Shown here: positions 12,239-14,295 of the stretch, one piece after another
Layout: each line of letters starts with the position of its first letter
Position numbering within the stretch: position 1 is the first letter of the stretch
Assembly (NCBI GenBank): GCA_016183805.1
Contig: JACPDX010000021.1
Coordinates: forward strand, 8,465-43,216
Length of the DNA: 34,752 bases
Origin: Bacteroidota bacterium
GTDB taxonomy: Bacteria > Bacteroidota > Bacteroidia > Flavobacteriales_E > Vicingaceae
Reading direction: 5' to 3'
Translations under genes and position numbers: made by a program
Notes under the pieces: model-generated
Database searches by the model: none
What the model was told of the DNA's origin: nothing
Seen by the model: the letters and a program-made list of their open reading frames with translations, nothing else

Positions 12239-13456
12239 ATGAAAATCAATTTTTACATAGCATATTTATTACTCTATTTAGTTTTTAACTCCAACGAGCT
12301 AAAAGCACAACATGCCGATTGTGATAAATTGTTGCGTTTAACCGACACTATTTACGAAGCAAAAAACATTTCAGGGTTTGGTGATAAAATGGAGTTTAAA
12401 AACAACTTTAACGATTCTGTATCTTCATTTCCTCAAGAAAACAACTCCATTTGGTATTTAATTCAAGTCCCAACTTCTGGCAATTTTACTTTTGATATTA
12501 TATCCAATAGCGATTTAGATGATTGGGATTTTTTATTGTTTGAAAACAAAAGTCAATTTTGCCGTAGAATAGATTCTAATAAAATAAAACCCATACGAAC
12601 AAACCTTTCAAGAAGCCCAACTACAGGATTGTCGTTGTTGTCAACAGAAAATTTTTCATCACCGGGCATTAACAACAATTACAGCAAATTTGTTACGGCA
12701 AAGGCAGGTGATGAGTATATATTGGTAGTTAATAATCCAAAAAAAGCAAACAGTAACCATACTTTATTGCTGCATTTTCCTCCCTCACAAAAAGTAGAAA
12801 AGAGTGTGGAACCAACCAAGGTTGAAGTAGTAAAAGACGCTCCAAAACTTAATTTCACTTTTGAGATAAAAGATGCAGCAACCAATTTGCCAATGCCAGC
12901 AAATGTTAGTATTAGCGGACTTCTAAAAGAAATTGTTGAATTGAAGGATGTTACCAATTATCAGGCTATTGTCGAAAGAAATTTATATAGAATAAATTTA
13001 ACGGTTTTTAATCAAGGTTTTATGCTGTATTCTGTAAAAATTAACATCAATAAATCAAAAGACATCTTTCATCAAGAAATACTTTTAGAACGAATTGTAG
13101 AGGGTAAAAAAGTGAGTTTAGACGATATTCAATTTCAAGCGGCGAGTGATAAATTTTTAAAAACAGCAGAAAGCTCATTAAAAAGTTTACTCCATTTTAT
13201 GGAGTTGAATAAAACGGTGAAAATTGAAGTCGGCGGACATGTAAATGGGCCGGGACAGTCTAATAGTCAAGAGTTTAAAAAATTATCGTTGGATAGGGCT
13301 ATAGCAGTAAAGAATTTTTTAATTGAAAATGGAATAGAAAGCAATCGAATTCAATATTTAGGTTATGGAAATTCAAAAATGATTTTTCCTGACCCAAAAA
13401 TTGAAGATGAACATTCAGCCAACAGAAGAGTTGAAATAAAAATTATGTCGAAATGA
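12239..13456 (+). CDS. OmpA-like C-terminal domain protein with N-terminal PPC-like domain
   Basis: A 405-residue exported protein (signal peptide ending NELKAQ, about residue 24). Residues ~30-180 form a beta sandwich resembling pre-peptidase C-terminal domains (SIWYLIQVPTSGNFTFDI, DDWDFLLFE, GDEYILVVNN). A short lysine/proline linker follows, then a Thr/Val-rich domain, and from ~295 an OmpA-type peptidoglycan-binding domain (FQAASDKFLKTAESSLKSL, LDRAIAVKNFLIENGI, NRIQYLGYGNSK, SANRRVEIKI). The usual GHTDN motif reads GGHVNGPG, so peptidoglycan contacts may differ. It probably links the outer envelope to the cell wall. Its last four bases (ATGA) overlap the tsaB start. Confidence 0.85.
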   Translation: MKINFYIAYLLLYLVFNSNELKAQHADCDKLLRLTDTIYEAKNISGFGDKMEFKNNFNDSVSSFPQENNSIWYLIQVPTSGNFTFDIISNSDLDDWDFLLFENKSQFCRRIDSNKIKPIRTNLSRSPTTGLSLLSTENFSSPGINNNYSKFVTAKAGDEYILVVNNPKKANSNHTLLLHFPPSQKVEKSVEPTKVEVVKDAPKLNFTFEIKDAATNLPMPANVSISGLLKEIVELKDVTNYQAIVERNLYRINLTVFNQGFMLYSVKININKSKDIFHQEILLERIVEGKKVSLDDIQFQAASDKFLKTAESSLKSLLHFMELNKTVKIEVGGHVNGPGQSNSQEFKKLSLDRAIAVKNFLIENGIESNRIQYLGYGNSKMIFPDPKIEDEHSANRRVEIKIMSK

Positions 13457-14154
13457 GTTTGATTTTAGGAATTGAAACTGCTACAAAAATATGTAGCGTG
13501 GCAATAAGTAGAGATGAAAAGCTTTTGGCGTTAAAAGAAATTGGTGGCGAATATTCACATTCCGAAAACCTGAATCATTTTATTGAATTGGCTTGTGCAG
13601 AAGCCAAAATTACCTTAAACCAATTGGATGCTATTGTGGTTAGTAAAGGACCGGGTTCTTACACCGGTTTGCGTATTGGAGTTTCCACCGCAAAAGGTTT
13701 GTGTTACGGACTAGATAAACCTTTAATAGCAGTAGATACTTTAAAAGCAATGGTGGTTGGAGTAACCGACTCCCTCCCCTTCGGAGAGGTTCAGGGAGGG
13801 GTTTTGTTCTGCCCGATGATTGATGCACGACGAATGGAAGTTTATACCGCATTGTATATTTCAAAATTTGAACTAATTGAACCCATTTCTGCGAAAATTA
13901 TTGACGAAAATTCATTCGCTCATTTTTTAGATAAAAACAAAGTAGTATTTTTTGGCGATGGTGCTGAAAAGTGCAAATCGTTATTGAATAATCACCCAAA
14001 CGCTGTATTTATTGATAACGTTGAGCCTTCAGCACAATATGTTAATCAATTGGCTTCATCCAAATTTAAACAAGGCATTTTTGAAGATGTTGCCTATTTT
14101 GAACCCTATTATTTAAAAGAGTTTTTGGCAACTACGTCTAAGAAGAAAGGGTAG
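13453..14154 (+). CDS. tsaB: tRNA threonylcarbamoyladenosine biosynthesis protein TsaB
   Basis: A 233-residue ASKHA-fold protein. Signatures are LGIETATKICSVAI at the start, SHSENLNHFI, the VSKGPGSYTGLRIGVSTAKGL stretch (about 64-83, not all shown by one motif alone) and CPMIDARRMEVYTALY. TsaB pairs with TsaD in making t6A37 on ANN-decoding tRNAs. The start overlaps the OmpA-like gene by four bases (ATGA), implying translational coupling. About residues 103-117 (GVTDSLPFGEVQGGV) are encoded by a palindromic repeat and fill a position where the family normally has a short surface loop; frame and downstream motifs are intact, so the protein is probably functional. Confidence 0.93.
   Translation: MSLILGIETATKICSVAISRDEKLLALKEIGGEYSHSENLNHFIELACAEAKITLNQLDAIVVSKGPGSYTGLRIGVSTAKGLCYGLDKPLIAVDTLKAMVVGVTDSLPFGEVQGGVLFCPMIDARRMEVYTALYISKFELIEPISAKIIDENSFAHFLDKNKVVFFGDGAEKCKSLLNNHPNAVFIDNVEPSAQYVNQLASSKFKQGIFEDVAYFEPYYLKEFLATTSKKKG
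13771..13801. repeat. GC-rich palindromic element inserted in frame within tsaB
   Basis: CCCTCCC at 13772-13778 pairs with GGGAGGG at 13794-13800 (plus a T/G wobble pair outside) around a 15-nt centre containing CTTCGGAGAGG. It is far more GC-rich than the surrounding gene. It resembles palindromic repeats of the CCCTCCCCTT...AGGGAGGGG kind that I recall between genes in many Bacteroidota. It contributes about 11 codons without breaking the frame. Confidence 0.65.
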
Positions 14155-14207: not shown

Positions 14208-14295
14208 CACCTGCCTACGCAGGTGAGGAGTTAACTACGTTCCTGCGTAGGCAGGAATCCAGTTTCCAGCAAAATTTTCATCCCGATTTTTCGGG
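14208..14295. repeat. Nested palindromic repeat cluster between tsaB and the DUF2971 gene
   Basis: CACCTGC-CTAC-GCAGGTG at 14208-14225 and TTCCTGC-GTAG-GCAGGAA at 14240-14257 are each perfect 7-bp hairpins with 4-nt loops. In addition their 14-nt cores (14210-14223 and 14242-14255) are exact reverse complements, so the pair can refold into one 14-bp stem. A third hairpin, CCCGA-TTTT-TCGGG, is at 14282-14295. The region separates convergent genes and could terminate both, or be a small repeat element. It lies in a 264-nt gap without an open frame. Confidence 0.75.

Follow-up and report, generated by a model that had tools for sequence, protein, structure and literature searches.

REP/RAYT families are made of hairpin repeats that flank a nuclease gene and that also occur as many isolated copies in the genome. 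Here we describe a palindrome read in frame inside tsaB of a Bacteroidota bacterium, found in a 34,752-nt stretch of DNA that was analysed as a whole (the window), together with the DUF559-bearing inserts to which it is related. These inserts resemble REP/REPIN repeats and their RAYT in having inverted hairpins around a nuclease gene and many isolated copies (described in part in PMC6006769). They differ from them in that the enzyme is a DUF559 (Vsr-like) protein and not a HuH/Y1 transposase, and in that the elements persist in frame within coding sequences.

Three other groups come close. Rickettsia palindromic elements (RPEs) are dispersed palindromes tolerated in frame in unrelated protein genes (PMC10969869), as is the case here; they are described in that review as ~150 bp long and from Rickettsia, whereas our element has a 32-bp solo form and a nuclease-coding full form of ~420–460 bp and resides in Bacteroidota, which sets it apart by description. 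Inteins and homing elements are also inserted in conserved host genes, the inteins in frame (PMC2814812, PMC3943268), and I-Bth0305I, which has been placed in the EDxHD family of homing endonucleases (PMC3943268), shares with our inserts a related nuclease fold and sequence, with homology in the catalytic domain. Unlike inteins, the inserts examined gave no match to an intein or Hint domain and show no intein-type ends by eye; they have palindromic ends, and solo ends persist. Finally, NGO0050 (structure 3hrl) and Caulobacter VsrA belong to the same Pfam family or profile, and VsrA has been proposed as a mismatch-repair endonuclease (PMC12907096); however, these two are separate genes for which the accessible text of the sources states no mobility. 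The element lacks a tested defining feature of each of the RPE, REP/RAYT and intein groups.

An in-frame palindrome in tsaB and its genomic copies

The first-pass annotation had described a palindrome with a 7-bp CCCTCCC/GGGAGGG stem lying in frame in tsaB, and both the sequence and the coordinates were confirmed. Positions 13770–13801 of the window read CTCCCTCCCCTTCGGAGAGGTTCAGGGAGGGG, and the features of the locus are as follows.

13453..14154, + strand: tsaB, the host gene, 233 aa (open reading frame, TIGR03725 match, family alignment)
13770..13801, + strand: proposed solo 3′ end-repeat, a REP-like palindrome of a DUF559 element, 32 nt (similarity to the 3′ end of the recG insert; genome-wide repetition)
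13771..13800, + strand: 10 palindrome codons, SLPFGEVQGG; the recG insert counterpart is SLPFGEGRGG (translation)
13772..13778, + strand: outer stem arm CCCTCCC (sequence)
13794..13800, + strand: outer stem arm GGGAGGG (sequence)

The 233-aa open reading frame is TsaB (NCBIfam TIGR03725, E = 1.8e-47, above the model cut-off) and is the sole TsaB match of its genome; a second, weak match on contig C87 (28% identity) is probably TsaD, judging from its frame length and partial identity. In the phmmer alignments shown for solved TsaB/YeaZ chains, the palindrome loop coincides with a short gap, of ~6 residues in the two best alignments. The palindrome accounts for 10 codons, and not for the ~14 residues given in the first-pass annotation.

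As a lone stem-loop, the palindrome gave unremarkable folding z-scores (−0.56 as DNA and −0.17 as RNA), and a search for inverted repeats of at least 8 nt reported none; the stem is 7 bp. Because folding alone gave no significance, the case for an element rests on repetition and comparison. Downstream of tsaB, at 14210–14255 of the window, we also observed an inverted pair, CCTGCCTACGCAGG / CCTGCGTAGGCAGG, which resembles another repeat family.

Using a degenerate 26-nt pattern with at most one mismatch, we found 41 matches (25 + 16) in the 3.47-Mb genome and a single match with the reversed control; after merging 1-nt shifts, the 41 matches represent 35 distinct sites. This is the genome-wide search proposed in the first-pass annotation, for which a single copy in the genome would have spoken against a repeated element, and with 41 matches against 1 that objection fails. 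A stricter pattern retrieved the tsaB and recG copies only. The two closest copies of the tsaB palindrome are an intergenic one on contig C66 (91% identity over 33 nt) and one on C62 (88% over 33 nt). The C62 copy (G000:C62:16460-16491, where G000 is the window's own genome) forms the 3′ end of an insert in recG and has 4 differences in 32 from the tsaB palindrome; the C66 copy is about as close.

The short stem and the lack of a significant folding energy are what one would expect if the tsaB palindrome were a chance GC-rich stretch. We regard this as extremely improbable: it is already contradicted by the copy number against the control, and by the two close copies elsewhere and the absence of the palindrome from the tsaB of most relatives. 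The copies that we read are mostly intergenic, and several of them form inverted pairs a few nt apart, so that dispersed hairpin repeats, often in inverted pairs as in REP/RAYT families, are present in this genome. An open frame (at least 60 codons before and 40 after) runs through 5 of the 26 distinct sites examined out of the 35. These five are tsaB, recG and genes for a T9SS-type secreted protein (L034), an OmpA/PD40-like protein (L012) and an SBBP-like repeat protein (L038), the last three being named by eye.

The full element in recG and tsaB, and its solo ends

The C62 copy closes an insert in the genome's recG that measures 441 nt between the marks used. The insert encodes DUF559 (PF04480, E = 1.9e-31), a Vsr-like nuclease, and the RecG protein is otherwise whole, its 795-aa piece scoring above the NCBIfam RecG model cut-off. 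At its 5′ end, the insert has a hairpin repeat that is inverted relative to the 3′ end. The encoded ends are SPSNLPEREA and NSLPFGEGRGGA, as compared with DSLPFGEVQGGV for the solo copy of tsaB.

We then compared tsaB within the family, where the gene is present in 46/46 genomes (aligned as 47 rows, some of them partial). In G018, tsaB carries a DUF559 domain (E = 5.9e-36) with palindrome-coded ends at the same site as the window palindrome, both lying between the same two conserved TsaB blocks. The residues of the window palindrome itself occur only in its own genome among the 46, the tsaB residues of G044 are possibly a decayed copy of the element, and the remaining tsaB genes, except that of G026 (see below), have short loops without resemblance by eye. 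In G000, G018 and G044, the altered tsaB is the sole TsaB match, other matches being its pieces or weak TsaD-looking ones. Both tests put forward with the original reading, the genome search and this alignment of relatives, came out in favour of a repeated palindrome inserted in frame; within the family, the objection that other TsaB proteins might share these residues fails as well. Its comparison with Rickettsia palindromic elements is apt as a description of how a dispersed in-frame palindrome works, but not as a statement of membership. The full picture exceeds a lone palindrome: on these sequence comparisons, the palindrome is the end of a larger, DUF559-bearing element. In the same loop of the G026 tsaB (L049), a different in-frame peptide, ACTERSRSTD (GAACGAAGTCGAAGTAC), was seen, and we take the stretch coding for it to resemble another repeat type.

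The 795-aa RecG piece and the G018 TsaB were also searched for domains alongside DUF559 (Pfam, and NCBIfam for RecG). The inserts of the G018 TsaB and of our own RecG score 123.1 and 108.6 bits, respectively, against the PF04480 cut-off of 20.6. No Hint or intein match was found in these two proteins with Pfam at E 1e-3, for RecG among the best 25 of 40 NCBIfam rows, or in 18 further host proteins with Pfam at 1e-8; the inserted domain would stay in the host protein unspliced.

A lone end or a scar, where other genomes hold the full element, was observed at four sites: tsaB, leuS site 1, leuS site 2 and recG. At leuS site 1, G018 and G022 have the full element and G012 a lone 3′ palindrome, and at leuS site 2, lone palindromes are found in G017, G018 and G044 and the full element in Pedobacter (L198) and in L184. 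Among the 30 recG loci that were read, that of G029 still has the outer tails of both ends, fused into a short remnant, and those of G019 and G020 probably have a decayed 5′ end; most others have a short loop (a longer one in G027, G042 and G045). Since four sites show a lone end or scar opposite a whole element, we somewhat favour, as a matter of judgement, that the tsaB copy arose by loss from a full element over the insertion of a lone end.

Taken together, we assign a probability of about 70% to the reading that the tsaB palindrome is the solo 3′ end of a selfish, REP-bounded DUF559 element that lives in frame and unspliced in the loops of proteins.

The leuS site 1 of the window's own genome (L293, G000:C43) has a different, AT-rich in-frame palindrome with 19-nt inverted arms, CAGTCCACAATTCTCAGTC; hence, this loop receives unrelated palindromes too.

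The nuclease, its hosts and its hairpin ends

An alignment of 75 inserts (45% mean column identity) has 15 invariant columns, including D71, E82, D84 and H88, as numbered by the first row of the insert alignment. Invariant acidic and histidine positions are of the kind expected in a catalytic site, and these residues may have such a role. The insert profile matched the DUF559 structure 3hrl (3.8e-32) and the catalytic domain of the homing endonuclease I-Bth0305I, 3r3p (1e-6), in hmmsearch. The AlphaFold model of the DUF559 domain was usable (83.6), while that of RecG with its insert was too poor (pLDDT 63.2, pTM 0.39). With the predicted domain, Foldseek ranked the same two structures on top, 3hrl and 3r3p (3.1e-6 and 1.7e-4), followed by three mitoribosomal chains (0.006–0.016) and then Vsr (0.029). 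The homing-endonuclease model of PADLOC matched the RecG insert (1.6e-7) and had no such match to the TsaB insert; PADLOC gave no defence system that we regard as trustworthy.

In the family, DUF559 matches were found in 22 of the 46 genomes. They include 11 internal in-frame inserts, in TsaB, RecG (six), LeuRS (two), IleRS and MetH, with the host frame open and host-like on both sides in all 11; apart from TsaB and RecG, the family hosts were named by eye. DUF559 is also fused to the C-terminus of a BioF-like enzyme (two cases) and of a restriction-type protein (one); at L128, L129 and L130, the C-terminal fusions are joined via palindrome-like peptides. The inserts measure 423–462 nt between the marks used. 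We dropped divisibility of these lengths by three as evidence, because lengths between in-frame marks are divisible by construction; the open host frame on both sides is the real point.

A scan of species genomes with the 11 family inserts as query gave at least 580 relatives, of which the best 80 were kept. Among these, 75 belong to open frames no shorter than 230 aa (three of them, L192, L195 and L199, as N-terminal fusions) and five in short frames (L193, L200, L203, L210 and L213). As the query was made of embedded inserts and the best 80 of at least 580 were taken, 75/80 is biased to embedded forms and is not a frequency. By motif, the 80 loci are LeuRS site 1 (36), LeuRS site 2 (2), RecG (11), IleRS (6), RecJ (2), MetH (2), other (16) and free (5). 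Pfam searches of 14 of the 16 others identified CoA-transferase III, LeuRS (two, one in a Paceibacterota MAG), an Lhr-type helicase, an enzyme of the acetyl-CoA synthetase type, UDP-GlcNAc 2-epimerase, UvrA, IspF (YgbB), guanylate kinase (two), methylmalonyl-CoA mutase, MetRS, ValRS and a DegT aminotransferase; in the final tree labels, three of the 16 are LeuRS. L131 and L132 were judged by eye to be a different kind of insert. In the species scan, 14 kinds of host protein (15 with TsaB) have an internal insert, and two more have an N-terminal fusion. The carriers, on the count of 75 of the 80 kept loci, are mostly housekeeping genes such as those of LeuRS, IleRS, ValRS, MetRS, RecG, RecJ, UvrA and MetH. 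The RPE feature of in-frame insertion in unrelated genes is thus seen both within one genome (tsaB, recG and the T9SS-type protein) and in many hosts elsewhere. As several carriers are named strains (Cellulophaga baltica, Gillisia, Maribacter luteus, Tenacibaculum, Pedobacter and Runella limosa), the inserts are not merely a metagenome artefact. In an unselected sample of the phylum, 170 of 296 genomes had DUF559 matches, and among the 150 matches listed, 35 lay in frames of at least 600 aa, 10 in frames of 250–599 aa and 105 in frames below 250 aa (lengths copied by hand). In three LeuRS genes (L139, L146 and L174), site 1 holds DUF559 together with several tandem palindrome-like peptides, as if ends accumulate in frame.

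Next, we measured hairpins in the 150 nt on each side of the domain against 773 control windows taken 400–800 nt off at the same loci; the flank tests omitted L108 and L109 (partial matches) and the five short-frame loci. Hairpins exceeded the 95th percentile on both sides at 52/75 embedded loci of the species scan, 5/10 embedded loci of the family and 6/12 of the phylum sample, and at 9/18 (family) and 10/18 (phylum) free-standing genes. They did so on neither side at 8/75, 0/10 and 1/12 embedded loci and at 4/18 and 2/18 free-standing genes, in the same order. At the 99th percentile, both sides exceeded the level at 9/75, 0/10 and 4/12 embedded and 1/18 and 3/18 free-standing loci. Some free-standing family genes, e.g. 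L113 and L104, are bounded by clear inverted repeats.

A terminal-inverted-repeat score was larger than the maximum of the same loci 600 nt further out at 43/75 embedded loci of the species scan, 4/10 of the family and 8/12 of the phylum sample, and at 11/18 free-standing genes in both the family and the phylum. We also tried this score with flanks swapped between loci, which is a poor control because related inserts share ends; above its 95% level were 22/75, 0/10 and 1/12 embedded and 1/18 (family) and 7/18 (phylum) free-standing loci.

In the close pairs computed, the inserts are under purifying selection: their dN/dS was 0.05–0.12 in 8 of 12 hand-picked pairs, the remaining four being saturated. 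This selection, which is like that on the hosts, and the monophyly of the RecG inserts would also suit DUF559 having been taken up by RecG, LeuRS and other enzymes as a beneficial accessory domain, with the palindromes incidental. We consider such recruitment improbable. The same domain sits in enzymes as unrelated as LeuRS, MetH, the acetyl-CoA synthetase type and UvrA, its occurrence is patchy (of the 43 family genomes in which recG was matched strongly, 6 have it in that gene), the ends of the inserts match repeats that are also intergenic, and the same nuclease family stands free between similar hairpins.

Movement, descent and a proposed cycle

The many isolated and paired REPs of the genome, and the survival of only a 3′ end in tsaB, are also compatible with a lone REP/REPIN having been moved straight into tsaB by a RAYT-like (HuH, Y1) transposase, the DUF559 genes being passengers beside REPs. 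Among the 20 REP-positive family genomes, Y1 matches occur in 18 (p = 0.0016), an association nearly as strong as that of DUF559 (16/20, p = 0.00025). Four REP-positive genomes lack a DUF559 match and six DUF559-positive family genomes lack a REP of this pattern, so co-occurrence alone fails to separate DUF559 from Y1 in the family. Moreover, RAYT subclasses with atypical flanking structures are reported from Bacteroidetes (PMC6006769).

We nevertheless regard this direct route as unlikely. The window's own genome, which is 95.9% complete, has a single Y1 match (PF01797, E up to 0.001), whose tyrosine motif, YVKNQEEHH, is similar to the YIKNQKEHH of the non-REP subclass 1.2, although its DHLH departs from the DH[IV]H that PMC6006769 lists for this subclass. 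No own-type REP lies within 1.5 kb of this gene, and a cognate Y1/HuH gene flanked by the repeat, as in REP/RAYT systems, was not found in the genome. Across loci, own-type REPs were seen within ~1.5 kb at 0/10 Y1 loci (the strongest, mostly IS200-like matches) against 7/30 DUF559 loci, a difference that is not significant (p = 0.16). Furthermore, recG carries an insert in G026 and G028, two genomes in which Y1 gave no match, and DUF559 is found between hairpins at many unrelated sites.

Returning to the DUF559 element, we followed its descent on a maximum-likelihood tree of 111 DUF559 sequences carrying 21 host labels; the domain being short, many of the forks lack resolution. The tree requires 25 label changes (minimum 20; shuffled mean 63.6). 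The 41 rows of LeuRS site 1 account for 10 changes, at least four of which, as gains or losses, are forced by well-supported branches. All 17 RecG inserts group in a single clade, as could follow from old vertical inheritance with losses, and 17 of the 18 free-standing family genes lie apart from the embedded subfamily.

In a RecJ pair (L134/L138), synonymous codon differences were far fewer in the insert than in the rest of the gene (0.18 versus 0.43, p = 1e-7), and likewise in a RecG pair (L148/L150; 0.12 versus 0.32, p = 3e-6), so that the inserts of these two pairs look younger than their hosts; the deficit was borderline for L172/L191 (p = 0.005). It was not significant in 9 of the 12 pairs, as vertical inheritance predicts, and L147/L155 leans in the opposite direction (p = 0.04). 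Next to the inserts, the four pairs profiled gave no sign of a co-conversion tract of low divergence. In a Paceibacterota LeuRS (L149), the host shares at most 50% identity with 34 Bacteroidota-type LeuRS proteins, whereas the insert reaches up to 61%, which is possibly a transfer between phyla. By these comparisons, some cases favour horizontal spread and many favour vertical descent.

From the above, we propose the following cycle. The complete element, of ~420–460 bp, is a small DUF559 gene between two inverted C-rich/G-rich hairpin repeats. Because one reading frame passes uninterrupted through both repeats, a copy that lands with the correct strand and phase is translated as an additional domain within a host-protein loop. 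The nuclease may cut or nick an element-free allele or a hairpin-like target, whose repair would copy the element (homing), with occasional jumps to new genes via the hairpin ends, and selection would keep only in-frame insertions in tolerant loops. The element would persist because its removal from an essential gene must be nearly exact, so that the host gene protects it; inteins at conserved sites have been explained in the same way (PMC2814812). If the nuclease gene is lost, an in-frame end or a scar would be left behind, such as the end in tsaB here. The repeat family, the anatomy of the element, its shared sites and hosts, and its solo ends and scars are thus observed, whereas cutting, movement, the lack of splicing and the origin of the tsaB copy by loss are inferred.

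We found no description of in-frame DUF559 elements in the titles and abstract starts listed by searches of the open-licence literature. The wider proposal stands for us at about even odds: a new class of mobile element, namely a REP-bounded Vsr/DUF559 homing element that resides as an in-frame, unspliced domain in essential proteins across Bacteroidota and in at least one Paceibacterota LeuRS, with the genome's REPs as its non-autonomous derivatives and the in-frame solo ends as its fossils, which make host proteins longer. If true, this would be selfish DNA that needs neither splicing nor an intergenic gap and hides as a domain in genes that the cell cannot lose. It would also give a testable role to DUF559, which Pfam lists as a family of unknown function, suggest where REP-like repeats may come from when a genome lacks a recognised RAYT, and show concretely how loops and domains can be added to essential proteins. 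Since tsaB, recG and leuS each occur as full, solo and empty alleles, gain and loss can be tested directly at these genes.

A separate observation concerns recG of G018 (L222), where the reading frame shifts within a G tract at the insertion site of the element, through either an assembly error or a failed loss.
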